From NCBI GenBank assembly GCA_037974665.1, contig CM075773.1, forward strand, positions 64,834,263 to 64,898,262: DNA of 64,000 nucleotides, given 5' to 3'. Numbering within the stretch: the first letter of the stretch is position 1; every line of letters starts with the position of its first letter. The notes under the pieces were generated by a model that worked only from the letters and a program-made list of their open reading frames with translations, searched no databases and had not been told where the DNA came from. Positions 25,501-63,789 of the stretch are shown one piece after another. Source of the stretch: Ehretia macrophylla (Eukaryota; Streptophyta; Magnoliopsida; Boraginales; Ehretiaceae). The position numbers were made by a program, and so were the translations under genes.

Positions 25501-25878
25501 TGTCTAACCTATCGCCTGTTTATGCGTACTCAGGACCTCTAAAAGTTTGTCTTCATACTCGGCAGTCAAATCCGAGGGAATAATGACTGGCAGGGTCTCA
25601 TTAGGTCTTAAGTAGGCATACTTAAGATGTTGGGGCAAGGTTTTGAGTTCCAACACTGGTGGAGACTCAATTGTGGGACAATCAGCGACTTCAGGGAAAT
25701 GAGTTGTTACTTGATCGTTCTTATCTGGATCAACAACAATGGAAGCGGAGGTGACTACTTCAGGTGAAATATCTTATTCATACAAAAGTTGTTCTAACTC
25801 CGTTATTTCTTCATCAGGAGTTAGAATCGACTGGGCAAACTCATTGATACATGAGTCAATGGTGTCTAGATGGAAGCA

Positions 25879-26470: not shown

Positions 26471-26739
26471 ATTGATCTTAATGTCTTTCAAATGCTCTAA
26501 GACCTTGAGCTGTTTAGGATCATTTATTGGCTTCGGATGGGACAGAGCTGTTGGGAAAGGTGCTCGAGAGGAGGCTTCAACTATTGACTCAACCACTAGG
26601 TAAGAATTCCTACGGGAGTCTTGGACATCATTGCCTAAAACCTCTATCTCTGGTTCTTCTATTTCCTCAATTTATTCAGGAACATCCCTAACCTTTTCTC
26701 TAACCTGGTTATCTATAGTCTTCCCACTTCTAAGAATAG

Positions 26740-28182: not shown

Positions 28183-28446
28183 TGTGAACTGTAACTTCCT
28201 ACGCAAATTTTTATGGAGCTTGGGATCAAACGGGGCGAGTTCTGGGTTCAAGGAACGATGCCCGTGCACACAACAATTTACAAACTTAAATACGAAATGA
28301 AACTACAAGATTTATAAAACTAATATACTTTGCAAACAGTAAAACAATTAAAACAGTGTAAAACAAGTAAACAATATAAACAGTAACTACAACACTTTAA
28401 AACAAATTCGCAATTACTTTTATGAAAAGCTAAACTATACCGTGCT

Positions 28447-28464
28447 TCCCCGACAACGGCGCCA
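28447..28464 (-). other. Primer-binding site of element A (tRNA-Asp type)
   Basis: On the minus strand 'tggcgccgttgtcgggga' lies 6 bp after the 5' LTR end. It is the canonical Athila/Tat site complementary to tRNA-Asp and appears undamaged. Confidence 0.9.
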
Positions 28465-28470
28465 AAAACT

Positions 28471-30031
28471 TGATGCAACCCGGTGGGCGTGTGAAAAATG
28501 TGTAAAATAAACCAAGTTAAAATACCTGCAAGTGCATGGATCTTTGTAGTGTAGTGTGCTCTGAGTGCGGAGTCGAATTCCACAGGGAAGCTCGTTTAGT
28601 TAGTTAATGAAGTAGTGTGAAAGTGTTAAAGCATTTAAGTGATAGTTTGTAAAGAGTTTGGAGTAACGTGCGAAAATGTAAACTAAATTAAACTAAACTA
28701 ACTAAGTACTTGTTAAAATACGAGGGAAAGGAATCTAGGAGTCGAACATGCAAATAAGGCAATTAACCTAGGCTTGGTATCCAGGATTCTCTGATTCAAT
28801 GCTGGGGTTAAGCTACAAGCATTGACCCGGTTAAGCTACAAGCATTAACCTAGTTAATCTACCTAGTTCGATTAACCTAGTACAACAAGGCAAACTAAAC
28901 TAAGTAATTAACTTCTCAGGAATAAACTATGGTACAACCTATAGTTCATTAAAGCACGAATATATGGCACGAAAGTAAAGCAATCATAATATCAACTACA
29001 AGTATAATATTATGAAAGACAATGCTGAATTAAAATAAGCCATATATTGCAATTGAATCAAATTATCCGAATCCAAAACCATAGATTACAAGACCGTTAT
29101 TTACAATATCCTCCCCTAGATAATAGCTATACTCAGGCATAATATTAAATACAAGTTGTACAAATAAGAGAGTCAAGAAAGGCTCCCCCGATATGACGAG
29201 TTTGTATTTTTGATTCCCAAAATTTGAGCAGAGGTTCGACACAAAATAGCTATTCGGGCGGAATTAATTTTCCCCGAATAAGAACTATTTCAGCTGAATT
29301 TCTCCCGAATAAGAGCTTTTATATTAAAAGCTATTCGGGCAGAACTTCCCCTGTATTCTATAAATACTACTAAATTAAACTAACTAATTAATTAAAACTA
29401 AAATTGAAACTAAAATTAAACTAATTAACTAATTAAATGAAACATAAATTAAACTTAAAACTATTTCTAATTGATAATTAAAAAAAAATAATAAAACAAA
29501 AAAACTAACTTAGTATTTTAGTCTCGGGGGAGGGGGTGGTATTTATAGACCCCCCCAATTGGTCTAATTGAAAAGGGTCCAATTAGATCAATTGATTGCC
29601 AAAGTTTTTTAGATTGCCATGGTAATCCAAATTCACTTTGTCGTGACCCTTTGATTGGGTCACAGCAAAGGACTTGGCTTGGGCCATGTGGACCTAATTT
29701 TTACTGTAAAGGCCCCGTGCCGATTGTGTCGGTCCGGGAAAAATTCTAAAAAGTGCAATTCTTGCAATGTTTGACGTCCTGGGCTCGATTCCGGGTTTGG
29801 TTTGGTTCAATCTTTCTTCTACGGGTTCCAATTTTCCACTGAATCTCAAATCTTCCCCGTTCTTTAATTCTTTCACTTGCAATTTGAATTGTGTTTAGGG
29901 CTTGATTTTTTTACTTTTCGATATTACTCTACATTGCATCGAAAGTATATTAGTGTTGCATTTATTCCTAAGTTAAGATACAAATGTAGTGGAAATACAA
30001 TGGTTTGAGTGCTGCAAATACAGTCATATCA
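28471..30031 (-). repeat. 5' LTR of element A
   Basis: This 1561-bp LTR reads TGATATGAC..GGTTGCATCA on the minus strand. A TATA box 'tataaat' (29541-29547, minus strand) follows a GC-rich 'ggtctattt'-flanked block that is absent from the 3' LTR. A strong hairpin 'cccgaataagagctttt' / 'aaaagctattcggg' lies at 29304-29339. Confidence 0.9.
29541..29547 (-). promoter_or_regulatory. TATA box of element A 5' LTR
   Basis: 'tataaat' on the minus strand, in the context 'gtctataaataccac', is the same context as the TATA boxes of element B's LTRs ('gtctataaata'). Transcription would run leftward from about 29510. Confidence 0.7.
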
Positions 30032-32680: not shown

Positions 32681-34931
32681 CTTACATGCATTTGCATTCA
32701 CTTACGTGCATTTGGGTGTTTTAGATTTCGTAGACATTAATTAAAATTCATTGATTTAAGATTAGCAACTATCTAGTTAGAAATCAACCAAGATGGAAAA
32801 CTAGTAGATAAGCTTTAGTTAGAGGGGCACTTTGATCATTAAGCCTTAAACTAAAATATCCTACCTAACTTCCACTAACTAAAACAAAAAAAACACAAAA
32901 CACATACACACACACTTGATTCACATACACACTCATACATACTTACATGGTTGAGCTATGGGGGAAGAAGAAAGAAGAAAAGAAGAGGAAACGGAGAAAG
33001 AATAGGGATTTTCAAGCATTTTCAAGCCATTCCAAGTCATCTTCAAGCTTGTGTAGCACTTTTCTTGTATCTTCAACCACTTCTTTACATTCAATCACTT
33101 GTTCAAGGTGAGGGAAGTTTTCTAAAAACTTTATAAAGGCATATAATGCATGTTGGTGAGTTCTATATGCGTGTTGAGCATGATCAAGGCCATACATATG
33201 CTTATTTTGTGAATTGGAGTTCGTGGTGAACACCTAGGGTTTCAAAGTTATAATGTATTGTTACATGTGGTTTGAATTTGCTCTTGAATGCTAGCATGTT
33301 GTCTCTATGGGAGTTTTACACTTGAATTGGAGTAGGAAAGTGGAGAATGCAATCCCTAGTGACAAGTCTTGGTTAATGACCTTGTTGGTGTGTTATAGTT
33401 GCTAATTGAGTGCTTTAATGGATTTTATGGTGGAATTGAGTCTAGATGATAGTTGTTGCATGCTTAGTTGGTTGGGTTTGAAGTTGTGGATAAAGGGAAT
33501 TTGTACATGTGCTTGGGAGTAGCAAGAATGAAGTAAAATAAAGTGCAAAAGAATAAGTTGTCCCCTAGACGAGAGGATCCGATTGAGTGACTCAACCGGA
33601 TAACTCGTCCAGATACTCTCTATCGTTTATCCGGACGAAAGGATCCAGTTGAGTGACTCGATCGAATGACTCGTCCAGATGCTCACTACTACTCATCTGG
33701 ACGAGTGGATCTGGTCGAGTGACTCGACTTGATGCCCTTATTTTAGCTGTTTGAGCTTCGTTTTTTATTATTTTTAAATGCATACTTGTGTGTGAACATA
33801 TTGTATTGTAAAGGTCAAGCTTGTGTATCTATAAATGTATTTTTACATTATACATGGAGTCATATTTCATTGAGAATCACTTGATAGGTCTTGAATTTTC
33901 TTCATGCTTATATGATATGTAATATGATGAAATGTCTTTACAAACTTGCATGACAGAGGCAACCTACTTTGTTGCCCTCCAGATTGTGTTATTCATGTTC
34001 TATATGTAAATATGATTCAATTGTGTACATGACAAGGTTGCAACCTTTTGGCATGGTAGTGTCAAGAAAATTGGGCGGCGTCGAACTTGTGGGTCTAGCA
34101 CGGCTACCATGGTCTTGATTCCCTCTCTTGTTAAGAACTTTACTACCCTGGGAGAGTAGGGCCGAATGAATGGGGTACGTTCGGAGTATTCCCGTGTAGA
34201 GTAAGAAGGGGAAAATCTTGATAGAAGCTTCGAGAATGGCCATCTCCAGCAAATACTCGTGATAGTGTATCCTTTTACTATATATGGTTACCTACTCTCA
34301 CTAAGAAATTTGCTACCCTGGGAAAGCAGGATTACATGCTTGTTATCACGTTTAATTCCATTTCTTGCTAAATGTTGATCTGTGCATGTCATGGTTTTTC
34401 TAAATGATTTCAAAAGGATAAAATGCTTGCAAAAATCCCCTTTCCTTTATCCCTCACTGAGCTAGGTGTAGCTCACCCCTCTTTCTAACAATTACAGGTG
34501 AGGCTGAGGCTGAGCCATCTCCATTAGTTGAAGGTGAAGTCGCTTTGTGTGATGAGACCAACTTCTACCTCATGTGATCCGTGCTTGTGGATATTGATGA
34601 ACCTCTTGTTGTATTAGAAGGATGTGTTCTATATGTTGAAACAACTTTAGGAATTGTATTAATCTTATAGATATTAGACTATTATTCTTTTGAGGCCTAG
34701 ATGTTATTATTCTGGACATGTATTATTTACGAATAAGAGGATCTAGGTCTTGTACATATGTTCTTGTTGAATGAAATCTTGAATTGTCGAGGACTTGGGC
34801 ATACTTTTGGAGCTACTTGTGGTTTATTGATAGATGTTTAAGTTTTAATTGATGATCTTATAGGTATTGAACTACATGACACATCGCGTCCCCGCCTTTA
34901 CCTCTGCAGGTTTTGGGTTCGGGGCGTGACA
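32680..34931 (+). repeat. 3' LTR of element E, 5'-truncated
   Basis: It aligns with the 5' LTR from about 12549 onward and ends 'ggggcgtgaca' at 34931. The first 60 bp or so, including the TGTAAGG start, are missing. It keeps the palindromic array (33577-33732) and the structured module (34050-34113). Confidence 0.88.
34050..34113 (+). promoter_or_regulatory. Structured LTR module, copy in E 3' LTR
   Basis: 'ggcatggtag' and 'ctaccatggtc' form a perfect 8-bp stem. The core here has decayed to 'gggcggcgtcgaacttgtggg'. The palindrome 'aaggttgcaacctt' precedes it. Compared with the 5' LTR, the stem is intact here, whereas the 5' copy has one mismatch. Confidence 0.7.
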
Positions 34932-35560
34932 ATTATCTGTTAAGCTACATGGATGGCACCAATTCTTGCCCCTCTACCACGATTACCATTGACGTCAAAG
35001 CCTCTTCCAATATGGCTTATTCCTTTTGGATGCGCTAGGATATGTTTCTTCCCTTTGCTATCATTGGCTCTCTCAGCCCCAATGTGGTTCTTATTGTTCT
35101 TTCGTATTCTACTTTTGCTGAAGCCTGGACTCGCTTGGCCAAGAATTACACCAATCCATCTTTTTCCCAAATCATGGGTCTCACTAAGCAATTGACTTTC
35201 ATTTCACACGAAAATTAGCTTGTTGCCGAATACCTAGCTCAAATCTACGATATTGCTGACGAGCTGGCTCTCGTTGGCTCTCTTGTCCTTCCTCAGTGTT
35301 TAATTACTCACACACTCAATGGTGTATGCCCTACTTTTAAAGAAATAGCTACAATAGTTCAGGCTCGTGACACTGTCATTGGCTTTGATGAACTCTTTGA
35401 CAAGCTACTTGAATATGAAGTGTTCTTAAAACGCGAAGAGTTACGTGCTATTGGTGTGCTTGGGCCTATCAGGGCCAATGCCACACGTTTTTACTTATCT
35501 AGAAATCAGCAATAATCAGAAGAATTATTCTTCTACTAAAGGCAATTCACAAAAACGTTA
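34932..35560 (+). pseudogene. Copia D gag, third fragment
   Basis: It continues in frame from 12486. It includes 'AEAWTRLAKNYTNPSFSQIM', 'YLAQIYDIADELALVGS', 'THTLNGVCPTFKEIATIVQA' and 'GFDELFDKLLEYEVFLKREE', the C-terminal half of the Copia gag domain, closely parallel to element F gag at about 59290-59630. Two in-frame stops (near 35037 and 35217) are visible. Confidence 0.85.
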
Positions 35561-35599
35561 TCCTCCAAGCAACGATGACAAAAAGCACTCAAATTAAGG

Positions 35600-36160
35600 G
35601 AACTCCCTGCCAACTCCTCCAACTTCTCTAAAGCTCTTGTTTTTTGTCAGTTCAACGATAAGAAGGTCCACACTGCTAGGCAGTGTTATACTGTGAAAAA
35701 AATATATTTTTCTCCTCGCTACCACCTACCACTAATGCAGCCAACACATCTTCTTCCTCAAGCTGGCTTATAGACAATGGTGTTTCCCACTGTCACTACA
35801 GATCTTAGCAATCTATCCCTCTGACAGTCTTATAAGGGCCCAGATGATGTCGTGATTGGAAATGGTACAGGTTTGCAAATTTCTCATGTTGGTCAATCTA
35901 CTATATCCTCCTTTTCTCAATCCTTCTCCCTTTCTTATGTTCTTTGTGTACCTTCTATTGAAAAGAATTTAATTTTTATCAATCAGTTTTGTCCTTCGAA
36001 TAATGCCTCAATCGAGTTTTATCATTCTTGTCTTTGTGTCAAGAATCTCTCCATGGGGACACCACTCGTCACGGGGTTGAGCAAGAATAATATCTACAAA
36101 TGGCCTATTAATGGTGATAATGTTTCCTCCTCTAAGCAAGTGTTCACCGGGGTCAAGGCA
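35600..36160 (+). pseudogene. Copia D zinc knuckle and protease
   Basis: A decayed knuckle 'FCQFNDKKVHTARQC' has lost its second Cys and the Gly-His pair. The protease motif is 'WLIDNGVSHCHY', where Copia elements normally have DSGAS. The protease then continues openly with 'VIGNGTGLQISHVGQS' and 'SYVLCVPSIEKNLIFINQFC', the conserved C-terminal strands. Frameshifts near 35720 and 35830 separate the parts. Confidence 0.8.
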
Positions 36161-37165
36161 TCTCTCAATAAATGGAATGACATGCTTGGTCATCTTTTGA
36201 CCAACGTTCTTAGTCAATTAGCTGCCCGTAATTGCATTAGTTCTCTCCCTTCCCCTTATTTTTCCACTTGTGACTCGTGTCATTGTAACAAAAGCCATAA
36301 GTTACCGTTTAACAACTATAGTTTAAAAAGTAGCCATCCCTTAGAACTGATATTTACTGATATTGTTTGGGGCTTTCCCTTGTTCGCTAAATAAATGGAT
36401 TTTCGTATTATCTTTTATTTGTCAATCACTTCACAAAATATTGTTGGTTGTTCCCACTCACTTTTAAACCTGATTTTTTTTCTATTTTTCCTACTTTCAA
36501 ATCTACGATTGAAAAACAATTTAATACCTCAATAGCCATTGTGTATTCAGATGGTGGCACTGAATTTAAGGGTCTTTGTTTTATCTTTGCAAAATATGGC
36601 ATCCAACATCTGGTATCTACTCCTTACACTCCAAACCATGTTGCCTCTATTGAAAGGTGTTATTGTCATATTGTTGAAAGTGGTTTAACACTTCTTCACT
36701 GTGTTTCCCTCCATTTAGCATTCTAGCCTTTCATTTTTCCAGCAGCAAAATACCTTATAAATCATCTCCCTACACCTATTTTGAATGGACATTCATCATT
36801 TAAGTGCTTATTTCAGTCAACCCCAAATTACTCGAAACTAAGTGTCTTTGCTATCCCTGGATCAAGCCCTACATGCGTCACAAACTGGAACAACGGTCCT
36901 AACCTTGCCTCTTTTGGGGTTACTCCGCAGTTCATAATGTATACATATGTTTTGAACTAGTGTCACACAAATTCTACCACTCACGTCATGTCCATTTTGA
37001 TGAAGACTCATTGCCATATATATCCACTTACTCTGCCTCTTACGTAGTTAACTTTTATACAATGTCCAGATAGTGTCAGTCACTTTGTGGTCTTGAGTCA
37101 TTCTTTGTTTTCCCTATACCCATTATTCCCACGCCAACTGATACTCCTTTGGCTATATCTTTACC
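36161..37165 (+). pseudogene. Copia D integrase
   Basis: The pre-integrase His-Cys domain shows 'WNDMLGHL' and 'CDSCHCNKSHKLPF'. The core starts 'PLELIFTDIVWG', breaks at a stop near 36391, and continues with 'VYSDGGTEFKG' (second catalytic Asp) and 'TPYTPNHVASIERCYCHIVE' (catalytic Glu). Past 36726 it decays through several frames. Insertion H follows at 37166. Confidence 0.85.
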
Positions 37166-37991
37166 TGTAACGACCCCAACCCGACCCTTCTCAAGACTAG
37201 GTCAAAGTCCGCGTTTATCATCATTGCGAGTTCATAACTTTCTATTAAAAGGAACAGTAAATAAAGAATTACTTAATAACAAGCCTTTATATAATAATTG
37301 AACTACAAAAGGGTGTTACAACATCTGAGATCTGATAACTACCCGACTATCATACAAACTGAGGTTTCAACACAGATACCCTTCTTCCTGAAATTAATAC
37401 AATAAATTCTAACTTTTACAACTTGGATCCAACTATGACAGCAAGAGGCTTCAAGTAGGTAAACATTCAAAGTCAATTTCCATTTCAAGCTAAGCTACAC
37501 CTACACTGGGGAAAGAAAAGAGGGTGAACTCTGGGGAAGCTCAGTGAGGATGAAATAGAAGAGTTTTGAAAACATTTCTAGTCGGTCTCTTTTGCAAATC
37601 ATTATGCTATTTACGTATTGTAGTATAACAAATTATTCACATAAGATACATATAACAAGTAGAAATTACTATTCAAGTCACATATCGAGTAACGGTAATA
37701 ATTTTTAGATAGATAATCAATTTATATTGCAATAATAATCACATTTAGTGGCATATACCCACATCACATATCAGCCTACTCTCCAAGGATGGAATGCCAA
37801 GCGAGAGTAGGACACTACTCTCCAAGGATGGTACCAAGCAAGAATAGGAACAAGTCGATCATTTCACGAGGTGGCCAGCCTTGATCACAATTCCAACTTC
37901 TTATCTCTCCCAAGAGGATACTTCGAATTGTATCCAAAATCTACGACCCAATTCCCCGAGGGTGGAGATCGCTAAGCGGGAGAGGGAATAG

Positions 37992-38057
37992 GTCAACGAT
38001 AGACACGGGAGCACCGACAAGCCCTATGCCGCCCGAAGTTCGTGCAAGCTATCGGGC
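37992..38057 (-). promoter_or_regulatory. Structured LTR module, divergent copy in H
   Basis: On the minus strand it has 'ggcccgatag', the core 'gggcggcatagggcttgtcgg' and 'ctatcgttgacc'. The core matches those of E, G and solo LTR 1, but the stem bases differ (CGATAG with CTATCG in place of CATGGTAG with CTACCATG) while still pairing. 'ggttgcaacc' precedes it, as in the other copies. Confidence 0.65.
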
Positions 38058-38698
38058 CTAAGGTTGCAACCCCCAAGTACACACAAGCATGCACAAGTAG
38101 TCATAGAACACACACATATCATATGGGGATCAACTAAAGTGGTTGTCCCGGGCAGGTCATAAACATTTTCTTTGCAATTCAAAGTATAATTTTGGCAGAA
38201 TAACGACTATAACAAAGAAATTTCCAAGTGTAAATTGGGTATTATGATGACATGCAAATAACATGTATAATATTCCTGGAAATAGTTGGGCAGCATATTT
38301 GCTTATGCTAAAACAATCATATAAATCGGGCAGTATATATTAACAATTAATTGGACAAATTTAAGCATAACAGGGATATACTAACAACATGTAGATATCA
38401 TTAATAAGTAACGCAATAAAACCCTCACAGTCAAGCTTGTCTATATTTATAACTTATAAATTAATAACTAACTTGTACAAGAAATGAATTAACTCAAATA
38501 AACATGAGTTTTTCAAAAGTTTCCTCACCTTAAAATGCCAAAAATTGGAGAAGATTCAGGCCAATTTTGAAACTTTCGGAACGTTAACTAACTGAATCGA
38601 TATAATTTAGTAGAATCAGGTCAGAGAAAAATGTATGCCCGTTTGATTTTAGGAGGTCAAGTGACACATTTATATAGGCCTTCCAGGCCGACAGAGGG

Positions 38699-38880
38699 GG
38701 ACACGTGTCCCCCCACGTGTCACGCATGCGTGGCATATCCACACATGTGTGACACGTGTCCCTCCCACGTGTCACGTATGCGTGGCACGTCCATGCATGT
38801 GTGATACGTGTCCTTCCACGTGTCACATATGCGTGGTACGTCCACGCATGTATGACACGTGTCCCGAGACACGTGTCACT
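38699..38880. repeat. Tandem array with seven CACGTG sites in H
   Basis: Imperfect repeats of about 56-60 bp contain 'cacgtgtc', 'cgtatgcgtgg' and 'tccacgcatgtgtga' words. CACGTG occurs at 38702, 38714, 38753, 38766, 38817, 38856 and 38870. CACGTG is the palindromic G-box core bound by plant bHLH and bZIP factors. Whether it is bound here is inference. Open frames through this array are by-products of the repeat. Confidence 0.85.
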
Positions 38881-39439
38881 CCCTGAGAGTGACACCAACG
38901 TTCTGTTTTTTCGCCCATTTCACGCGCAGGTATCCCAATTTTTGTATTTTCGGGCCGGGATATAATTTTGTCAAATTTCACCATTAAGTAGTACAAGTTA
39001 AAGGAAACCCAATGGCGTATGCCCATTTTTCGCAGCGGGGTCCCGATTTTCCTATAATTGGCCTCGAAGTGAAATCCTTTTTCCTATAATCACCCATACT
39101 TTTGTAAGCAGCTGAAAAGGTTTACTTGGTCACGATATGGGGCTTTATATCCCTGTAACGACCCTAAGCTTAATATTAGTTCATGTTACAAGAACACCTA
39201 ATAATAGGTTACTATTAATCGTAATACCAATTGGTTTTGAAATAGTAAGACAATTAACTATAGGTTAAATGCAGGCAAATAATCACAAAGGCACATTTTT
39301 CAAAAATAATGAAAGAAATAAATATAAATAAATACTTATAAATACATGGTCGGCCTCGGGTATTACACTACCCTTCAAGACAACGTCTCCATCTTCAAGC
39401 TTATTATTTCTGTACGAGTCCTTTTCAACTGATGGTGTC

Positions 39440-40541
39440 AGGCACCGAGAGCTTGGTTCTGTGAACTCAAGAATTTCATCTTATCTCTTGGGTTTCTTAA
39501 TAATCGTTCTGATTCATCTCTATTTATCTATTCTAACAAAAATATTATTGCCTATGTTCTTGTTTATGTTGACGATCTACTGGTTACAGGAAACACTGCT
39601 GCCTTTGTTCGTTATGTTATTAATGCTATCTCAAGTAATTTCTTAGTGAAAGACTTGGGGCAATTATCCTATTTCTTTGGTGTAAAATGTGTTCCCTGTC
39701 ATTCGGGCATTTTTTTATCACAACAAAAATATGCAAGAGATCTCTTTGCCAAATTCCACATAGAAGGTGCAAAGGCATCTTGCACGCCTCTTAGCTCTAC
39801 TTCCAGACTTTCTTTGCCTGATGGTACACCTTTCATAGATGTGTCTTTTTATCACAGCCTTGTCGGTGGATTACAATACTTGGCCTTGACTCGCCCGAAC
39901 TTGTCATATGCAATAAATAAGCTTGCCCAGTTTATGCATGCTCCAACTCAATCATACTGGACAGTTGTAAAATGCCTACTGTGATGCATTAAACATACCA
40001 TATCTTTTGGTCTTTTGTTCCGAAAATCATCTCCACTCACGCTAACTACATACTCCGATATCGATTGGGTTGGGAATCGTGAGGATTTCACCTCCATTTT
40101 AGCTTATGTCATTTTTCTTGGCTGCAATCCAGTCTCATGGTGCTTTAAAAAGAAGTGGACAATTTTTTGATCTTCAATTGAAGCCGAATATCATTTCATT
40201 GCTTCTATAGTTGTTGAGGTATGTTGGCTCAATAATTTACTGCGATAGCTCATATTCTTGCCCCCTCAACCTTGTTACATGTTTTGCGACAACTTGGGTG
40301 CCACTTATTTATGTCTAAACCTCGTCTTCCACTTTCGAATGAAACATCTTGCGTTATACTATAATTTTGGTGCATGAGAAGGTTGCAAATGGCTCCCTAC
40401 AAGTAGCTCATGTTTCTACCTCTAATCAGGTTGCTAATGTGTTGACAAAACCACTACCTATATCTTACTTTGCTGAACTTCGGACCAAGCTGGGTGTCAC
40501 CGATGACTCTCCTATCTTGCCGGAACATATTAAGGGATAGT
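39440..40541 (+). pseudogene. Copia D RT (C-terminal part) and RNase H
   Basis: It starts at 'QAPRAWFCELKNFI' and includes the catalytic '[12 protein letters not shown]' (YVDD 39565-39576), 'KDLGQLSYFFGVK', 'GIFLSQQKYARDLFAKF', '[20 protein letters not shown]' and '[13 protein letters not shown]'. RNase H parts 'TYSDIDWVGNREDFTS' and 'SSIEAEYHFIAS' follow, with the end 'VAHVSTSNQVANVLTKPLP'. The RT N-terminus is missing next to H. Stops at about 39982 and 40169 and later frameshifts kill the gene. The last stop is at 40538-40540, immediately before the 3' LTR. Confidence 0.9.
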
Positions 40542-41501: not shown

Positions 41502-43127
41502 AAGTCAAAAAAATGAACAATGAAAAGAATTCGAGAACGAGTGCAAAACGAGCCTGTAGAAAAAGAATTTGGCCCAACCGAGCACAAAAAAGAAGTCAGG
41601 ACGTCAAAAATAGAATGAAATGCCCCTATCAAATTTATATCCAAAAAGTCAAAATCGTTCCGGCACCATCAACAGCGTACGAGGCAGGGCCCCAGCGTGG
41701 CTGTGGACGTTACCGACCTGATTTTGACTTTTTGGCCGAAAATTTGAAAGGGGCGTTCTATGCTATTTTTGATGTCCTGAGTTTATTTTTGTGCTCAGTT
41801 GGGCCAAATTCTTTCTCTATAGGCTCGTTTTGCCACCAGTTAGAGGCCATATCATGGCCACGCGAGCACCGGGGGCACGCCCTACCGTCTACGGCGGGGC
41901 CCTTGATTGGGCCACAGCATAGCCATGTGGACATAGGAAGCATAGCCTACCACCCACGCATGGGAGGAGGGGGTGACCACCACCCATACTACGACCCCTA
42001 ATTGGGCTGCGGCATGCCACGTGGCCCTATAAGCCCCAACAGTTGGCGAACCCAAGAGAAGGAGGTCTATAAATACCCCCGATTCCAAGAAGAAATCATC
42101 TTTCATTCAATTATTTTTCCGGCTTTCCTTTAGTTACTGTAGTAGGTTAGTTAGGTTCTTTTGTAATAGTTAGTATTTTTCAAGCATGGGAGAAACTCTG
42201 CCCAGGTAGCTACATTTCAAGGAGATTATTGTACAATTTAAATAGAGGACAAACATGGTGGTTGTGCTAGTAGAACCTCTGCTCAAACTGCTACGTCAGA
42301 AATACGAGTTCATCTAATGAAGGAGCCTTTCTTTGCTCTTTTTTATTTGTGTAGCTAGTATTCATTTTTAATGTTTGAGTAGATCTATTGTCTAGGGGAA
42401 GATATTGTAATGACGGTCATTTAATTTATGGTCTCAGATTCAAATGATTTAATTTTGATGCAATATATGGTTTATGTTATTCAGTTTATTATTGTCTTTC
42501 ATATTCATTATACTTGTAGTTAATGTTATAATTGTGTTACATACATGTCATATACTTGAGCTTTAATTGTAAATTTATTTGTTGTACCATAGTTTCAATG
42601 AAGTTATAGGTTGTACCATAATTTCTATTTGTGGATTTATGAATTGCTATGTTTAGTTAATTAGCCCGATCACTTTAGATTACAAGGAAAGATCTATATT
42701 TAGCTACATAAAGGACACGAGGATAGAACGACACCTATAGCTAAAATAGTGACCGAAAATTAATTAGAGTTAGGAAATTAACTAGGTTAGGCTTGTAGCT
42801 TAATCTGAGCATCAAAACAAAGAATCCTGAACCCGAGCCTAGGTTAATTGTCTCATTTCTTATCCGACCCTTAGACTATTTATCTTGAATTTGACAAAAC
42901 CGAACTTTAGGTTAATTTACATTTTTTCATGACACTTCAAATCATTCTCAACTATTTCACACATTTACTTAAACACTTTCACACACTTCTCCACGGATTA
43001 ACTTAGGAGCTTCCTCGTGGATTTGACCTCGCACTCAAACATATTACACTACACTGATCTGTGCACTTGCGGGTTTAAAACTTAGTTAATTTTGCACGCA
43101 TTTTATATACTGGCCAAGTAGCAATCA
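41502..43127 (+). repeat. 5' LTR of element B, truncated start
   Basis: It matches the 3' LTR from about 50402 onward ('gagcaat/gaacaat', 'attcgagaac', 'cagcg', 'gaggtctataaata') and ends 'gtagcaatca' at 43127. The first 150 bp or so of the LTR are replaced by LINE sequence. TATA 'tataaata' lies at 42068-42075. Two pieces of the GC-rich 'ccacgtggcc' type lie around 41870-42030. Confidence 0.88.
42068..42075 (+). promoter_or_regulatory. TATA box in element B 5' LTR
   Basis: 'tataaata' sits in the context 'ggaggtctataaatacccc'; the 3' LTR has the same at 50898-50905. The context is shared with element A's 5' LTR. Confidence 0.7.
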
Positions 43128-43133
43128 AGTTTT

Positions 43134-43151
43134 TGGTGTTGTTGCAGGTGA
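43134..43151 (+). other. Decayed primer-binding site of element B
   Basis: 'tggtgttgttgcaggtga' occupies the place and spacing of element A's 'tggcgccgttgtcgggga' but differs at several positions, including both CpG sites. It would prime poorly. Confidence 0.75.
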
Positions 43152-43441
43152 GGCACGGTATTGTTTTTTTTTTTTATAAAGTGTTTTGAATTTGTTTAAG
43201 TGTTTTACTTGTTGTCTTTATTTTGTAAAATTTGAAAATCAGAAAAGTACTTTTTGGTCTATTTTGAATAGTGCTATGATAATTGCGTGAAAATTTTTGT
43301 AAAGCACAAATTTTTGTGTAGTTTCTTTCTGCATTTAAACTACACCAATTTTGTATGCGTGGGTACCGTTCCTTGAATCCGAAACTAGACTCATGTGATC
43401 TCGAACCCTAGAGAATTCCTCATAGGAGATTATATTTCCCA

Positions 43442-44868
43442 ATGGTAAACCAAGATGAAAATTTCTAAAACCTTCCAAATCTTCATGTGGCTCAACCTAT
43501 GGATCAACCTATGAACTTAAGGCCTCCACCGATGACTCTTCGTTAATACTTTTCTCTAGGTGACTACAATCCCGAGTTCGCCATAGCCCCACCGACTCTT
43601 GAAAATGTAAATTTTGAACTCAAAATAGGAACAATATCGATGTTTCCTTCTTTCTATGGGAGGAGCAACGAAAATCCTCACGCTCACATCGTCGATTTCC
43701 TTGAAGCATGTTTTACTGTTCATATTCCTAATGTGAGTTGGGAAAACATTCAACTGTTACTCTTCCCATTCTCACTGAAAGATAAAGCCAAACAATGGCT
43801 ACATCATCTTGATGCTGGATCCATCACATGTTGGGAAGAACTTATTAGAAGATTCTTACATTGATTCTTCCCAATGGCCTAAATCACCACCCTGTGAATG
43901 GACATCATGATGTTCACTCAGTCTGATTTGGAACCATTCCACAAAGCATGGGAAAGTTTCAATGATCTGCGAAATCAGTGTCCCCATCATGGATTTGAAC
44001 ACCTCGAACTCTTGCATTACTTCTTTGAAGATCTTACCCTATAGCAGAAGATGATGGTCAAGCCAATGAGTAACCCCAGCATCTTCAATCTCACAACAAA
44101 TGATGCCTGGGGTAGAATTGAGAACATAGCCAAAGACTCCCTCCAGAATACTGCAATAGACCGAGAGGGAAGAAGTAGTCATAATTCTCCCAAAAAAAAA
44201 GCACTCTTCAAAGTTAGCTCAAACGCCAATCTAACTAACAAAACAGATGCCTTTGCTCAGCTAGTTGAAAATTTTATAACTCTAGGGTCTAATTTCTCAC
44301 TAGCTCCTCAGAACTCGGAGATGTGTGCCATATGCTCCGAATTAGACCATTATATTGTTACTTGTCCAATCGGTTCAGAATTCACCAAGTTCATGCAATA
44401 ATAAGTCTTTGCCACATAAGGATAGATGTGAAATTATAATCCATATTTGAATTCGTATAAACCTGGATAGCGAGACAATCTCGCGTTCTCTTAGTGATAG
44501 AGAAACCGCGAACCTCAGTTTTATCAGCAACAATTCCAAAGACCCCAAAATCCTCTAGGTTTCTATCAAGTACCAAAAGAAAATCCGTTTAGAATGTAAC
44601 AGAACAATCTTCCCACTCTTCTCCTGCTTAATCATCATCTGATGACAAATTCGATAAACTTCTACAAGTGGTTCAAGTCCAGGAACAGTCGATTACTAAA
44701 CTTGAAAACCAAATCGGGCAGTTAGCCCAACATCCGAACAAGAGAGACGAGGGCAAGCTCTCATCCCAGCCTGTAGAGAATCGACATGGACAATGCCAGA
44801 ATATCCAAATTGAGAGCACCCAAGAGCAAGCTAAGGCTATCAGCACCTTTAGAAGCGGAAAAAAATAG
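43442..44868 (+). pseudogene. Element B gag
   Basis: The ATG at 43442 starts a frame broken by a stop after eight codons and again near 43538. Open blocks encode 'MFPSFYGRSNENPHAHIVDF' (from 43640), 'LLLFPFSLKDKAKQWLHHLD', 'MMVKPMSNPSIFNLTTNDAW' (from 44051) and 'CAICSELDHYIVTCPIGS', and finally a Gln-rich 'QVQEQSITKLENQIGQLA' stretch and 'FRSGKK'. The same series is found in element A. Frameshifts near 43864, 44400 and 44600 separate the blocks. Confidence 0.88.
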
Positions 44869-45098
44869 ATAGCCATGTAGGACAAATGAGTCAAAATTTT
44901 CTCGAGGAAATAGAGGATGAAATTGAAATTGAAGATCAGGAAGATAATGTCAATGAGTCCCATAAGAATGAACAAGTTATGGTAGACCCAGTAGTGAAGC
45001 ATCCATCTCAAGTATTATACCCGGCAGCTCTGTCTTGACCAAATCCAAGTGAGGACCTTAAAAATCTAAATGGTTTAGAGAAAGATATTAAGATCAAT

Positions 45099-46046
45099 TT
45101 GCCTTTAGTAGAAGTGATCCAACAAATTCCGGCTTATGCTAAGTTTTTGAAAGACTTGTGTGTGGAGAAGAGACAGACCACTCACATACCAAAAAGGGTC
45201 AGGCTCACTGAAAAGGTTATCAATATCTGCACTCGAGGATTGCCCCTAAAGTTTAGTGATCCAGGAGCTTTTACCATTCTGTGCATCATTAAGGATCAAC
45301 AAGTAGAAAATGTTTTGCTCAACTTGGGATCTAGTGTTAACCTAATCCCACATACGGTCTATCAGAGATTATATTGGGGAAAATTGATGCCGACTAATGT
45401 AACCCTCCAATTTGTAGATAGATCTAAAAGAAGACCCAAAGGTACAGTAGAAGATGTTCTTGTTAACGTTAGGGAATTTTTACTTCCCGTCGATTTTATT
45501 GTGTTCGATATGGATTTTGGCCCTAACATTAAAAATACCACCCCCATCCTACTAGGCAGACCATTCTTAGCAACAGCTGACGCTGTTATCTACTACAAGA
45601 CTGGCATAATAGAATTGACCTTTGGGAATATGCGCACTAAGTTAAGGGTAGCTGATGTGGCCAATAGGATGAATAAAGATGATGTGGATGAATGTTTTCA
45701 TATAGATATCATTGACCATTATATAGAGGAACATGCCTACATACTCCTAACTCTTGAGGAAGAAATTAAAGAGCTAGAGCAGCTTTTATATCACTGCAAC
45801 ATTTCACTTAAAATAATCACCTCATCTTCTTTCATGATTGATCCAAGTGAGACCAATCAGGTCACGACTTCCCTCTCTCAAGATTCTGATTGTCACACAA
45901 TTGAGTCTCCCTTTGCTTTGGAGCTTAAACCATTGCTTAAAAATCTAAAATATGTCTATCTCGGACTTGATGAATCTTTGCCAGTGATAATTGCCTCAAA
46001 CTTGACTTCTGATCATGAGGAAAAGTTAATGGAAGTTTTGGGCTGA
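45099..46046 (+). pseudogene. Element B protease and linker
   Basis: A continuous block of 315 codons has 'LVEVIQQIPAYAKFLKDLC' at its start, 'CTRGLPLKFSDPGAF', the catalytic site as 'VLLNLGSSVNLIPHTVYQRL', and 'ILLGRPFLATADAVIYYKTG'. The catalytic Asp of the DLG motif is Asn (codon 45321-45323), which should abolish retropepsin activity even though the frame is open. The last hundred codons are the acidic linker that leads to RT. Confidence 0.9.
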
Positions 46047-46049
46047 CAT

Positions 46050-46990
46050 AAAACAACAATAGGATGGACCGTAGATGATTTGAGAAGAATAGATCCGGCT
46101 GTTTGCATGTATCGAATTCATTTTGAGGAAGGTGTCGTTCCCTCTCGAGAAATGCAAAGAAAACTGAACCCCAAACATGAGTGAGATTGTCCGCAAAGAA
46201 ATCATTAAGCTTCTTGACGCGGGTATTATTTACCCGATCTCTAGAAGCTCATAGGTCAGAACAATTCAAGTTGTCTTAAGAAGTCTGGGATCAAGGTGGT
46301 CCCTAATGATAAAGGTAAACTCATTCCCACACGCACCACTATTGTTTGGCGTGTCCGTATTGATGATAAAAAGCTCAATGCCAAGACTCGGAAAGACCAA
46401 TTTCTCTTACCCTTTCTTGATCTAATACTGGATAGAGTAGCTAGACAGGGCTATTATTATTTTTTAGATGGATATTCTGGGTATAATCATATCTCAGTCT
46501 TCCCCGAAGATAAAAAAAAGATCACTTCCACTCATCCCTATGGGACCTTTTCTAATTGTCGTTTGTCCTTTGGTTTATGCAATGCCCCTGCGATCTTTCA
46601 AAGGTGTATGATGGCCATTGTTCTGACATGGTTATGAAGTTTCTAGAGGTCTTTATGGATGACTTCTCAGTTTTTGGAACTACATTTGATGAATTTGGTA
46701 CTTAATTGGGAGAAAAGTCACTTCATGGTTAGGTGAGGGATAGTACTTGGTCATGTGGTATCTCAGGATGGTATCCATGTAGACACAACTAAGGTTGAAT
46801 TGATAAAGAAGTTCCCCGCACCCGAAACAGTGCGTGACATTGGATTATTCCTTGGTCATGCCGGTTTTTACAGGCATTGTATCAAGGACTTTAGCCACAT
46901 TGCTCGACCTCTTTTGAAGTCCCTTAGCCCATGATACTCCATTTAATTTTGATGACAAGTGTGCTAAGGTTTTTGAGAAGTTGAAGTCCT
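46050..46990 (+). pseudogene. Element B reverse transcriptase
   Basis: The parts are in order. 'ITTVW'-type sequence appears as 'TRTTIVWRVRIDDKKLNAKT' (from 46296). Then come 'FLDGYSGYNHISVFPEDKKK' and 'PYGTFSNCRLSFGLCNAP'; after a frameshift near 46630 the active site 'FMDDFSVFG' (46652-46663, intact), then 'HAGFYR'-type remnants. Deletions and frameshifts around 46690 and 46930 break the frame. Confidence 0.9.
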
Positions 46991-47040
46991 TACGTTACTC
47001 TGCACCTATTATCTAACGACTCGATTACAACCTCCCATTT

Positions 47041-47460
47041 AAGATTATGTGTGATACTTCAGATTATGCAGTGGGAGCTATTGCAACCACAAAGAAGGAA
47101 TTGTTAATTGTAGTATTCTTCCTTGACAAATTCATGCCATACATCCTAGGGTCAAAAGTGATAGTATATACGGATCATGCAGCCTTGCGTTACTCACTTA
47201 CCAAATGGGATACTAAGTCCCGTTTGATTCGTTGGTTACTATTACTTCAGGAATGTGACTTAGGCATCAAAGACAAAAAAAAAGGGAGTGAGAATTCTGT
47301 TGCTGACCACTTATCACATCTTGCTCTTGATTCCTCCATTTACTCTCTTCATTTTAATGATACATTTCCTAATGAGCAGCTCTTTGTTGTCTCACATCGG
47401 ATCCCTTGGTATGCCCATTTTGTTAATTACTTGGTGGCCCGAGAGTTACCTCCCCACTAG
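47041..47460 (+). pseudogene. Element B RNase H, internally deleted
   Basis: It begins '[12 protein letters not shown]' and jumps directly to '[17 protein letters not shown]'. Compared with element A, about 30 residues (from 'VLGQ' to 'KNYT') are missing in frame. The rest, '[16 protein letters not shown]' and '[14 protein letters not shown]', is well kept. The deleted part includes an active-site region, so the domain would not work. Confidence 0.9.
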
Positions 47461-57941: not shown

Positions 57942-58620
57942 TTTTTTTTTTTTTTTTTGTTAAGTAAGTAAGTATATTCATTTCAAAGTAATAAACTTCA
58001 AATAGAGATACAAAATAAGAATGTTCCAGACCTATTTTAGCAAAAACTCAATATTTCACTTTTTACAAATATTCCTATTTATGTTATTGTTTCTAAATCT
58101 ACAGTGAAGGCGAATCTTTTACCTAACAACAACCATAGTCATAACAAAAAATTACTTCTCAAATAAAACACTTTTATCATGCATTCTATTGTTCCTCTCC
58201 ATCCAAATATTATAGACCACAGAACCAACAAGGAGACGAGTCAAGACTGCTTGAAGACTTGTACCCTTGCAAAAGCTATTGCTCTATTGCAGCAAGTCAT
58301 CCCATCTCGATATTCGTCCATCAATCAAGCACAAGCTCAAGCCCTTTTTCCAGATTCTTGCACAAAGACTACACTGAAAAAATAAACGATCCCTGTCTTC
58401 TACAACCAAGTAGCAAAAAATACATAAACCATTTGTATTCAGTCCCCAAGATAGCATCTTCCATTTAGTCGGGAGGCGATTAGTAATAGCAAGCCAGAGG
58501 ATAAAACTATGCTTCTGAATACGAAACCTATCCTAGACAAGAAAATGTCAAGGGACAGTTGGATTTCTACTTCTACAAGTTTCCCAAGCAGAAGAGATGG
58601 GGAAAACTCCATTTGATCCC
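57942..58620 (-). pseudogene. LINE relic 2, 3' part with poly(A) tail
   Basis: The 17 T residues at 57942-57958 are the poly(A) tail on the minus strand. Reading leftward from 58620, fragments encode 'HSFILWLAITNRLPTKWKML' and 'GLCIFCYLVVEDRDRLFF', the zf-RVT domain at the end of plant LINE ORF2, followed by a decayed C-terminus and a 3' untranslated region. It continues element 63100-63789 across Copia F. Several stops and frameshifts are present. Confidence 0.85.
58616..58620. repeat. Target-site duplication of Copia F, left
   Basis: 'atccc' here is repeated exactly at 63100-63104, directly outside the two LTRs. Confidence 0.9.
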
Positions 58621-58837
58621 TGTCAAGACGTAGTCTTTGTATCTATCTAGAACACACTTGGTAGATAGCTTATCTTTATCCACTGCAACTTCCTGATAGT
58701 CAATAGACATTTTAAACTCCTAGTAACTAGGATGTAGTTTGTATCAGTATTATCTTTCTGATGTATATAAGCCTACGTAGGCTAAACACTTGTGTATTAT
58801 GAATACATTCAAAAGCTTTGCTACTCAAATCTCTTCA
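58621..58837 (+). repeat. 5' LTR of Copia F
   Basis: It starts 'tgtcaagacgtag' and ends 'caaatctcttca'. TATA 'tatataa' lies at 58764-58770, directly followed by the 14-bp perfect palindrome 'agcctacgtaggct' (58770-58783). It is identical to the 3' copy as far as I can read. Confidence 0.95.
58764..58783 (+). promoter_or_regulatory. TATA box and adjoining palindrome in Copia F LTR
   Basis: 'tatataa' overlaps the start of 'agcctacgtaggct'. The palindrome would sit close to the transcription start, so it could act as a DNA binding site or as a short hairpin near the RNA 5' end. It is repeated at 63032-63045. Confidence 0.65.
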
Positions 58838-58851
58838 TGGTAATCAGAGCC
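58838..58851 (+). other. Primer-binding site of Copia F
   Basis: 'tggtaatcagagcc' directly follows the LTR. It differs from the usual initiator-Met tRNA site 'tggtatcagagcc' by one inserted A. Confidence 0.85.
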
Positions 58852-58952
58852 ACATTGACTCTAAACGAGTAGTTTTTTTTCCCCGCAGTGCACTCATTTC
58901 TCGATTTTTGAGCAGCAATCCTTTTCATTTCTCTGCATACTCAGTGTGCACC

Positions 58953-59850
58953 ATGTCTGCGTCTCAGTCTTCATTTGCCGGCACCAGTGTTACTGTCGCT
59001 TCCGCATCTTCTTCTACAGATGGCCTTATTGCCATTAATGCCGCTGCCCAGCTTCCGCTTAAGTTGACTCCGCAAAATTTTCCCTCATGGAAGGCGCAAT
59101 TTGATGCCCTTCTCATTGGGTATGATCTCATGGGGTACCTTGATGGTTCCTTGCCATGTCCTTCACCTACTATTGTCTCGGCTGATCGAACAACACCAAA
59201 TCCAGCTTATTCGGTGTGGATTCATCAGGACAAGTTCTTGCTTCATGCCATTCTGGCATCTTTATCTGAGGGTGTTACGGCTCTCTATTCCTCAGCTATA
59301 ACTTCGAAGGCGGCCTGGGACAAACTTCTAAAATTATATGCAAATAAGTCTAGGTCTCGGGTCATGAGTTTGAAGGAAAAGCTTACAAATATCTCCAAGG
59401 GTACTCAGTCCGTGACTGCCTATCTTCAAACAATTCGCAGCACTGCCGATGAGTTGGCCATTGTGGGCGCTCCTATTGGTGATGATGATCTTACTCTTTT
59501 TACTCTAAATGGTCTTGGCCCTGCTTTTAAGGAAATTTCAGCGGCACTTCGGGCTCGTGACACCGCCATTTCATTTGAGGAATTGTATGATAAATTGGTT
59601 GAATATGAAATAACTTTACAGAGGGAGGATACTCGCACCTCTGCTTCTGCTTTTATTACAGTAAATGCCACGTAATCTTCCCACAATCAGTCTGGTTTTT
59701 CCTCTTTCAAATAGAATGGGCAATCTTCTTCTCACAACAAACCCAAGGGTTCGTAACAGTGGCGCAAGAATGGTAATAGGGGCAATCAAAATAAGCCTCC
59801 AGTTGTTTGTCAATTCTGTGATAAGAAAGGCCATATGGCTAAGAATTGTT
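58953..59850 (+). pseudogene. Copia F gag with zinc knuckle
   Basis: The ATG at 58953 is chosen because it follows 'cacc' and starts the Ser/Ala-rich 'MSASQSSFAGTS' leader; the frame itself is open further upstream. The gag domain has 'NAAAQLPLKLTPQNFPSWK', 'LIGYDLMGYLDGSLPCP', 'SKAAWDKLLKLYANKSRSRV' and 'FEELYDKLVEYEITLQRED'. Stops at 59673-59675 (TAA), about 59712-59714 (TAG) and about 59757-59759 (TAA) follow in the same frame, which then encodes an intact CX2CX4HX4C knuckle 'CQFCDKKGHMAKNC' (59808-59849). So the gene is in one frame with three nonsense changes and no frameshift. Confidence 0.92.
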
Positions 59851-59960
59851 TTACTGCCAAGAAGCTTATGCAACAACCCACGGCAAATCATACTACTACT
59901 AGGCCGTCGACTTCAAACACATGGCTTCTTGATTCAGGGGCGTCACACCATGTGACTAGT
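59851..59960 (+). pseudogene. Copia F protease, N-terminal remnant
   Basis: It continues the gag frame to the active site 'WLLDSGASHHVTS' (Asp at 59931-59933). Copia homology stops at 59960. The open frame that continues to 60035 is only the reverse complement of the integrase-end coding sequence. The rest of the protease is missing. Confidence 0.9.
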
Positions 59961-61311
59961 TTGAAGATGTTATTTTTTGATCGAGTGACAACGCGTGGTT
60001 CTATCATAGAAGTGGGGGGTAATGTTGAGGACTGAGAAGTGACAGATTTAGATTGAATAACTTGAGCTATTGATGAAGGACTGGAAGACACAACATTAGG
60101 CGACAAAGAGAGATGAGAATCATACCTAGAGGGTGCCAACTGTTCAGATTGAAGCAGGGGAGACGACACAAGTGTCCTGGGAGTAGTCGGTGTTGTGGGC
60201 AAATCATGAGCACGTGGTGCAATTGAAAGAGCAGCAGAACTGGGAGCATTGTTATGCGAATTAAAGGGTGGAGTAGAGGTGCGAAAGACAAGAGGTTGAA
60301 GAGCCGCTAAAGCTTTGGAGCAAGACGTCCATGATGACACATCTGATGTGGGATTTGAACCAGACTGAGTAGTGGTAAAATAAAATTGGGCCTCCACAAA
60401 TTGTACATGACGAGAGACATAGAGCTTACGAGCAATTGGGTCATAATATTTGTACGCATTGTGTATGTTGGAGTAGCCCAAAAAAACACAAGGTTTGGAA
60501 CGTACTTGAAGTTTATGGGAATTGTATGGCCGAAGCCAAGGAAAACAAACGCAGCCAAAAACACGAAGTTTTGCATAATGAGGTAGGTGACCAAATAACG
60601 CTTGAAAAAGAGTGTTATGCTTAAGAATCGTTGTAGGGAGGCGATTAATAAGATAAACCACAGTTAAAAAAACATGAGACCAATAGGAAATAGGAAGCTG
60701 AGTTGTGTGAAGTAATGCAAGACCCATTTCGACTATGTGCCTATGCCGACGCTCAACAGAACCAACATGTTCTGGGGTATATGGCGGGGAAACTAGGTGT
60801 TGTATACCTTGGTTTTCAAAAAAAGATTTGAGGCCTTTATACTCTGTGCCACCATCAGAATAAAGTGTTACAATTGATTTGCTGAAGTATTTTTCAACCA
60901 TTGGCTTGAATTTTTGAAAAATGAGAAAGACATCAGATTTATACTGCATCGGAAAAAGCCATACATATTTAGTGAAATGATCCACAAATAGAACATAATA
61001 TCAAAATCCATCAATAGACTGAATTGGGGAAGGCCCCCAAACATCAGTATAGATTAAGTCCAGAGGATGACAACTTTGCAAAGTAGAAGCGCCAAAGGGC
61101 AGCTTGTGACTTTTGTTACAGAGGCAAGAATGACAAGAAATGTCTAATTTATTACTTGACACAGAAATACATTTATTCCGAAAAAGATAACTAAGAACTT
61201 TTCTGGAGGGATGGCGTAATCGTTGATGCCAGTGGATCGGAGAAGCTCGCACGTGCACATGAGTAGCAGAAGGTGAAGCTTGACTGAAACTGCTCACGGC
61301 AGGCCACTCGT
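59960..61311 (-). pseudogene. Inverted integrase block of Copia F
   Basis: On the minus strand from 61311 downward: 'VSSFSQASPSATHVHVRA', 'IHWHQRLRHPSRKVLSYLF', 'CHSCLCNKSHKLPFG' (His-Cys domain), 'HPLDLIYTDVWGPSP' (first catalytic Asp), a TGA stop near 61001, then 'VDHFTKYVWLF', 'VTLYSDGGTEYKGL' (second Asp) and 'TPEHVGSVERRHRHIVEMGL' (catalytic Glu). The C-terminal part runs to 'RVVTRSKNNIFK', which ends at the left breakpoint 59960-59963. Apart from the stop it is in one frame and well preserved. It points opposite to the rest of the element, so it cannot be made as part of the polyprotein. Confidence 0.95.
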
Positions 61312-62882
61312 AAACGTCATCCCCTTCCCACTCCCATTGAACCCACTCGCGGTTCGCAAGCTCTTAATGATCCTAAGTGGCTCGCTGCGATGCGTGATGA
61401 GGTTTCGGCATTACATAAGAATCATACATGGGTGCTCGTTCCTCGACCCCCCAATCACAACGTTGTGGGCTGCAAGTGGGTTTTCCGAATTAAATGAAAT
61501 CCGGATGGCTCGATTGCATGCTATAAGGCACGATTAGTGGCCCAAGGTTTTAGTCAGCATCCGGGAATAGATTATCATGATACATTTAGTCCTGTTGTCA
61601 AACCCACAACAATCCGTGTTGTCTTGTCAATAGCGTTAAGTTTTGGGTGGTCTATTAATCAGCTTGATGTTAACAATGCTTTTTTGCATGGTCGTCTTAC
61701 TGAAAAAGTTTTTATGGCACAACCTCCTGGCTTCACTGATGTCTTGTATCCCGATCATGTATGTTGTTTAAAAAAGGCTATTTATGGTTTGAAACAAGCA
61801 CCTCGTGCTTGGTACACTGAGTTAAAAACCTTTCTACTTCAATTTGGTTTTCAAAACTCAAAGTCCGATGCGTCGTTGTTTATCTATAGGTGTGGTTCTG
61901 CACTAATGTATTTTCTAGTTTATGTGGATGATCTGCTTGTGACAGGGAATTGCCCTAACACCATCACTCAGTTCATTGCAGTCATCTCAAAGAGGTTTTC
62001 TGTTAAAGATCTTGGTTCGTTGAGTTATTTTCTTGGCATAGAGGCAGTGCACACATCCAAGGGCTTATTTTTATCCCAACATAAATACATTAGGGATCTT
62101 CTTGACAAACATCACCTCAGTGGTATTAAGGAAGCCACAACACCCATGAGTTCGACTGGAAGATTAGTGCTTCATGATGGGTCACCACCGGCAGATGGCT
62201 CGGTCTATAGGAGCCTTGTTGGAGGTCTTCAATACCTACTTTTAACGAGGCCGGATATTGCTTTTTCTGTCAATCGCCTAGCACAGTTCATGCATGCTCC
62301 AAGTCAAGCTCATTGGTCTGCCGCAAAAAAGCTGTTGCGTTATCTTAAGCGCACTATACATTTTGGTCTTTATCTTTTGAGCACTCAGTCTTTGAATCTG
62401 CAAGCATATTCTGATTCTGATTGGGCAGGGGATCGTGATGATTATACTTCTACTACTGCCTTCATTCTCTGCCTTGGTAATAATCCTATCTCTTGGTGCT
62501 CGAAAAAACAAAAGACGGTTGCTCGTTCCTCCACTGAAGCTGAATATCGTGCCATTGCTGCCACAACGGCTGAACTTGCATAGGTTTCGAATTTGTTGTC
62601 TGAGCTTGGTCTTAAACCTTCCCAGCCACCGACTATTTTTTGTGATAATTTAGGAGCTACTTTTCTATGTGCTAATCCAGTTTTTCATTCACGGATGAAG
62701 CATATTGCACTTGATTATCATTTTGTTAGAGATAAGGTACTTGCAGGTGATCTTAAGGTGGCTCACATTCACACTTCACGCCAACTAGCTGATGTCCTAA
62801 CAAAGCCACTACCAAAGCTGCAGTTTAGCAATTTGAGGCCCAAGATTGGTGTCACTAATGGCACCACAATCTTGCAGGGGCA
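61312..62882 (+). pseudogene. Copia F reverse transcriptase and RNase H
   Basis: From the right breakpoint the frame encodes 'RHPLPTPIEPTRGSQALNDP' and 'WVLVPRPPNHNVVGCKWVF', and reaches a TGA stop at 61495-61497. It then runs openly to 62580 with '[20 protein letters not shown]', '[19 protein letters not shown]', '[12 protein letters not shown]' (YVDD near 61921), '[14 protein letters not shown]', '[13 protein letters not shown]' and '[12 protein letters not shown]'. A TAG at 62581-62583 interrupts it where a conserved Trp is normal. The RNase H end '[20 protein letters not shown]' follows to the stop 62893-62895, inside the 3' LTR. No frameshift is seen. Confidence 0.93.
62868..62882 (+). 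other. Putative polypurine tract of Copia F
   Basis: 'aatcttgcaggggca' directly precedes the 3' LTR start; 'caggggca' is the only purine-rich sequence at the place where the plus-strand primer is expected. It is short and overlaps pol coding. Confidence 0.55.
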
Positions 62883-63099
62883 TGTCAAGACGTAGTCTTT
62901 GTATCTATCTAGAACACACTTGGTAGATAGCTTATCTTTATCCACTGCAACTTCCTGATAGTCAATAGACATTTTAAACTCCTAGTAACTAGGATGTAGT
63001 TTGTATCAGTATTATCTTTCTGATGTATATAAGCCTACGTAGGCTAAACACTTGTGTATTATGAATACATTCAAAAGCTTTGCTACTCAAATCTCTTCA
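62883..63099 (+). repeat. 3' LTR of Copia F
   Basis: 217 bp, no difference from 58621-58837 found by eye. The pol stop codon lies 11-13 bases inside it. It is followed by the target duplication 'atccc' (63100-63104). Confidence 0.95.
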
Positions 63100-63789
63100 A
63101 TCCCGAACGCCAAAGGAACCTATTGTCCTTGTGAGGTTGAGGCAGAAGGTTATGAAGATTATGAAAAATTTCAACCATCCTTTGATCACCCCCATCCCAG
63201 AACAATTTCTCCCAGAAATGAGCCTGGAAACTTTGTCATCCCAATTCCTTGGATTATCGCCATCAATAGTAATGTTGAAATGTCTAGTCAAACAACCAAA
63301 TGGATGCCATGAATCATGCCAGAAAAAAAAAAAAAAAAGGCTGAGTTTCCATTGTCAATCTTGCTGTCAACAAGCAATCTAACTTCATTTCTGATCATTT
63401 TCATAAGCTTCTTCTAGGCCCAAGTCGAACTGTTTGTAACTTTTGCCACCGAAATAAATTGGCCTTTAAGAAGGTTTCTGTCAACCCAATGCCCCCAAAT
63501 AGACTCCTTTTTGGTGTTCATATTCCATATATGTTTAAACATAGCTGCTTTATTACGTTCAGTGAAACTCCTGATACCCAAACCACCCTCAATATAAGGC
63601 TTACAAACATCGGACCAAGCAACTCTCGCCCCAGCTCCAGTACCATCATTTCTTTTCCACAAGAAAGAGGCACACTTACTCTCAACAAGTTTCACAATGC
63701 TTTTAGGTAGAACAAAGATACTTGCCCAGAAGGCTTGAGTATTAGAAAGCATCGATTTGAGCAAACCCAAATGCCCCGAGTAGTCAAGG
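63100..63789 (-). pseudogene. LINE relic 2, RT C-terminal part
   Basis: On the minus strand from the right, an open block (63770-63414) encodes 'FWASIFVLPKSIVKLVESKC', 'FLWKRNDGTGAGARVAWSDV' and 'PYIEGGLGIRSFTERNKAAM', the classic region after the RT domain of plant LINE ORF2. Then comes 'WHPFGCLTRHFNITID' (about 63310), parallel to LINE relic 1. It is interrupted at 63104 by Copia F and continues at 58620. The 5' end near 63789 lies beside 'agtcaagg' (63782-63789), which also precedes the poly(A) tail at 57931-57938, so a 5'-truncated insertion with an 8-bp duplication is plausible. Confidence 0.88.

Follow-up and report, generated by a model that had tools for sequence, protein, structure and literature searches.

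An inverted integrase block inside a Ty1/Copia insertion with identical LTRs

How does an LTR retrotransposon with intact ends come to carry its integrase on the strand opposite to gag and reverse transcriptase (RT), and does such a copy stand alone or belong to a family? The question is raised by element F, which lies in the window analyzed here, a 64-kb stretch (C10:64834263-64898262) of a 1.58 Gb assembly in 20 contigs, which its protein relatives suggest to be that of a plant. The initial annotation placed the reversal either in the last round of reverse transcription or in an already inverted template, held that in both cases the copy had moved with foreign protein, and raised the prospect of a propagating, inverted-core non-autonomous family. 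F as it stands is one rearranged, defective Copia element, of a kind already known.

Anatomy and junctions of element F

F is bounded by two + strand LTRs of 217 bp (58621-58837, TG...CA, and 62883-63099) that have the same sequence (0/217 differences), and these are flanked by a perfect target-site duplication, ATCCC (58616-58620 and 63100-63104, read from the letters); both features had been reported initially and are confirmed. Directly after the 5' LTR, the + strand carries a probable primer-binding site (TGGTAATCAGAGCC, 58838-58851), assigned from the letters by its motif, which, one additional base aside, resembles the site for initiator-Met tRNA in plant Copia elements. Gag, a zinc knuckle and protease as far as DSGASHHVTS follow on the same strand (58953-59960), with stops at 59673, 59712 and 59754. 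Gag was identified by Pfam (PF14223, frame 58803-59675), the knuckle (PF00098, in 59757-59960) scored 20.2 bits, just under its cut-off of 20.8, and the protease is presumed from its motif. The next block (59960-61311) lies on the - strand, has a stop at 61003 and comprises pre-integrase (gag_pre-integrs, PF13976, frame 61001-61363), the integrase core (rve, PF00665, in 59960-61000, at 23.6 bits under the curated cut-off of 32.6) and an SH3-like domain (SH3_retrovirus, PF25597, frame 59960-61000, E 9.1e-26). RT and RNase H are again on the + strand (61312-62882, stops at 61495 and 62581). RT was recognized by RVT_2 (PF07727, frame 61498-62583), and a search of solved structures with it gave no match; the RNase H part is presumed, as in the initial annotation, and 62584-62895 has no Pfam match. 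That pre-integrase and integrase run antisense to gag and RT is borne out by these - strand domains lying between + strand ones.

Judged against Ty1/Copia criteria, F has the LTR pair and the target-site duplication, and PF14223, PF13976, PF25597 and PF07727 pass their cut-offs. The canonical position of integrase upstream of RT is kept and its sense is reversed; F is a rearranged Ty1/Copia derivative, not a canonical member. The left flank contains a LINE-type zf-RVT domain on the - strand (58284-58532, Pfam), and the right flank gave no Pfam match in the reading frames tested. When the flanks are rejoined with one ATCCC, one - strand frame is open across the site, and zf-RVT lies in a different frame. 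The best explanation is a fairly recent insertion, beside or into a LINE-like remnant, of an element that is defective and apparently single.

The coding sense flips at ~59957-59960, where protease meets the reversed integrase end (NNIFK), and at 61311-61316, where the reversed integrase start (DDVYEWP) meets the RT start (RHPLP). Both positions, read from the letters and relatives, are ambiguous by a few bases and lie close to those first given (59960-59963 and about 61311). The two sources share 1–2 bases at the left junction and ~3–4 at the right, as read from the letters and judged from relatives in place of F's own parent. The 200-bp stretches at the two breakpoints gave no inverted match with each other, and the longest exact one within 25 bp was 5 bases. 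This combination does not indicate homologous or site-specific flipping, and a repeat-mediated or site-specific invertible segment was rejected because the breakpoints have no inverted repeats.

Compared with eight relatives that have terminal-repeat pairs, F is without the 285–288 bp normally found between protease VTS and integrase DDVYEWP, a protease tail present in all eight. Also missing are the ~42 bp of linker that normally lead from integrase NNIFK to the start of RT; by match coordinates, like the other distances, this linker measures 42 bp in five of the eight and 37, 33 and 16 bp in the other three. The rearrangement is a deletion combined with an inversion, not a clean flip, and both junctions join parts of apparently one lineage.

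Integrase orientation and copy number

Integrase sense relative to gag was surveyed at 35 other related loci, which are not all independent (L006 and L007 are 95% identical duplicates): 31 have the same sense, four have no detected integrase and none is inverted. The gag-derived part covers 30 loci (L015-L044, including F) out of 40 scored gag places; 26 of the 29 non-self loci carry integrase on the gag strand, three (L020, L021 and L032) have none within the sequence stretch examined, and none is inverted. Integrase is in the normal sense in L006-L009 and L053 and was not detected in L057. The count leaves out L045-L050, L054, L055 and L058, which belong to elements that it already includes; L051 and L052, which lack both gag and integrase; and some weaker matches, within L006, L007 and L055, to other elements. 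A second Copia-like set in the window (34937-40519), also outside the count, runs all on one strand.

Some of these loci have features of their own. In L057 (C16 near 36795673), gag extends to F residue 287 and RT lies 113 bp further on, so that this is apparently an integrase-deleted copy. In L038 (C6:65797078) and L040 (C6:65862946), integrase runs only to residue 172, and ~15 bp on the RT match picks up at residue 58; the two lie 66 kb apart, and their common internal deletion reflects either duplication or a small deleted family. The duplicates L006 and L007, ~44 kb apart on C20, have another insertion nested between protease and integrase (3748-5276 and 3977-5499, respectively), with direct repeats of ~342 bp. 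Within the window, 24447-28820 and 42791-47079 form an inverted pair of ~4.4 kb at 68% identity, with related pairs around, and 12549-14778 and 32682-34931 form a direct repeat of ~2.2 kb at 88% identity, the latter copy ending shortly ahead of position 34937, where the gag match of the second Copia-like set begins.

Copy number was assessed in one assembly with probes for the left junction, the right junction, the LTR and gag, and the genome-search counts are lower bounds. Only F matched the 201-bp left probe (59860-60060) in full, the other four matches stopping at 59956-59960; the same was true of the 201-bp right probe (61211-61411), where the other two matches start at 61318 and 61332. 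The LTR probe returned F's own LTRs and three pieces of 53–63 bp at 86–87%, with no other full match. With gag there were at least 58 matches (40 of 191 candidates scored); other long matches were 67–73% identical, and one 71-bp piece reached 80%. The closest long DNA matches found (~82%) are truncated 3' fragments on C20 (L051 and L052), and no parent copy of F was found by the junction, LTR and gag probes of the assembly. At the point where the match is interrupted, L051 (near 2.49 Mb) and L052 (2.40 Mb) each have two 119-bp direct repeats spaced ~380–500 bp apart, probably a nested insertion.

The initial annotation had proposed that breakpoint probes would recover several copies with the same junctions if an inverted family were propagating; only F was recovered. 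With F alone spanning the junctions, no second full LTR match and 0/35 loci inverted, an inverted-core family is unsupported in this assembly. By these probes, F looks like a one-off accident, apparently in a single copy, rather than a novel type of element. Protein searches of other plants found no close relative: the best RT identity was 68% among the 120 matches listed of 7970, and the best integrase identity was 66% over 54% of the query among the 120 listed of 1755. These values give no sign of recent transfer, as far as proteins can tell.

Timing and origin of the inversion

Across integrase residues 5–284 of 457, F has two private replacements at 81 conserved columns (one adjoins a junction), and in gag it has three at 89; the most decayed relatives show 31. 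Alignment to F defined the columns, which may favor F slightly. So few private integrase changes suggest that sense-strand constraint lasted until recently and that the flip is young. Nucleotide identity is lower for integrase than for gag in 7/7 pairs involving F (mean ~-2.3 points) versus 5/21 relative-relative pairs, which hints at relaxation and so perhaps an older flip, although relaxation is not seen at the conserved columns. Acquisition of integrase from another family is disfavored because the identities of F to the seven relatives are close across gag, integrase and RT, despite this deficit; the integrase looks native, which is short of proof.

Six in-frame stops with no LTR change have P = 3.9e-4, taken at face value under a flat mutation model. 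Eight dated relatives (L008, L009, L045-L049 and L055), all with LTR differences (2 to 12 substitutions), together have 53 stops versus 18.4 expected from LTR divergence; this is an excess of ~3x, with seven of the eight above expectation and L055 below, which suggests that templates were dead, that LTRs underwent conversion or that mutation is biased. Rescaled by this excess, the P value for F becomes ~0.02 (our own arithmetic), and the support from the six stops for a template that was already dead is weakened. The stops in F and the excess in its relatives could have arisen from biased mutation, from LTR conversion or through stops that predate the last hop, and trans-mobilization of a dead F template is possible.

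The most likely of the readings, at a probability of about 0.55, is that F was inverted by an error in its last reverse-transcription cycle; we infer both this timing and the following template-switch path. The growing DNA strand would leave its template at the RT start, re-prime near the protease/integrase boundary by pairing over a few bases with the complementary strand of a sister cDNA, copy ~1.35 kb in the wrong sense and return to the template at protease in a second switch. Two switches would explain why both segments were lost. The same product would result if cDNA fragments were joined before integration. For F to integrate, integrase would then have to come from normal copies, having been made before the error or by other elements, a case of ordinary trans-complementation. 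If the flip occurred during reverse transcription, the template could have been normal. That the copy moved with foreign protein in either case, as had been supposed, does not follow from the inversion. The last-cycle error is consistent with two junctions with losses, microhomology of ~1–4 bp, a single copy by probes, identical LTRs and little integrase decay. However, no datum places the flip before integration, and break repair in resident DNA just as typically leaves junctions with short homology and deletions.

LTR identity dates the last insertion and not the interior, so the choice first offered, between the last round and an inverted template, was incomplete: both remain readings, and inversion after insertion has to be added. 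Here, resident F would suffer two breaks, and end joining would put the fragment back in reverse with the ends trimmed. This main rival fits nearly as well and is a serious possibility, if a less probable one: the LTRs and the target-site duplication would stay untouched, and microhomology, segments lost at both joins and little-decayed conserved integrase columns all suit it. Against it, the time seems short given 0/217 LTR differences, and no inversion occurs in the eight dated relatives, every one of which has accumulated LTR differences, or at the 35 surveyed loci.

We consider it unlikely that F was copied from an RNA already inverted and dead, as a member of a trans-mobilized inverted lineage, the rest of which has been lost or resides in other haplotypes or species. 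The six stops beside identical LTRs, with their face-value P, and the lower integrase identity in every F pair speak for such a template; the assembly has no second copy across either junction and no second full LTR match, long gag matches do not exceed 73% (the 71-bp piece at 80% apart), relatives share the stop excess and integrase is nearly intact at conserved columns. Fainter still is the prospect of a small trans-mobilized Copia lineage that stably carries reversed integrase and is sampled, in this one assembled haplotype, through F alone; antisense integrase RNA or lost integrase function would perhaps be tolerated or help the lineage to parasitize normal elements. An assembly or scaffolding error is the least credible source of the inverted block: the 64-kb window contains no N bases, the junctions are short and precise and delete 285–288 and ~42 bp, unlike a misjoin at a long repeat, and the block has diverged from relatives about as far as gag and RT have. 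If both inverted and non-inverted accessions were found, they would tell a cDNA origin, as in the favored last-cycle error, from one in resident DNA.

Comparison with known LTR elements

F is a clear case of deletion and inversion combined inside an LTR element with intact ends. Its LTR identity is uninformative on the interior, and annotation that is blind to orientation could label the element complete. The normal Copia elements of the genome (the L045/L046/L048 family, L047, L049, L055, L008 and L009) resemble F in having gag, protease, integrase and RT modules in that order, with direct terminal repeats of ~114–258 bp and protein identities to F of 44–76% by block. Unlike in F, their integrase reads in the same direction as gag and RT, and 8/8 retain the protease tail. 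The C20 fragments L051 and L052 match the RT/RNase H end and the LTR start of F at ~82% DNA identity in their longer pieces (one L052 piece is at 75%); in contrast to F, neither gag nor integrase was detected in them.

BARE-2, LARD and TRIM are non-autonomous plant LTR families, multi-copy and made up of defective copies moved by the proteins of others. Movement of a defective copy by such proteins is a likeness that F may share, whereas F is single by junction, LTR and gag probes and those families are multi-copy. Our literature search, in which several queries performed poorly, found no plant element with an inverted integrase, and we do not claim that none is in print. Internal inversions are a standard category in HIV-1 provirus defect pipelines (PMC8473067, PMC8809251). 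Like F, such proviruses are bounded by LTRs, have an internal stretch inverted and are classed as defective (PMC8473067). HIV-1 differs in being an animal retrovirus, and the inversion passages of these reports list the category without a mechanism (PMC8473067, PMC8809251). With internal inversions a standard category there, an event of this type in an LTR element such as F would not be surprising.
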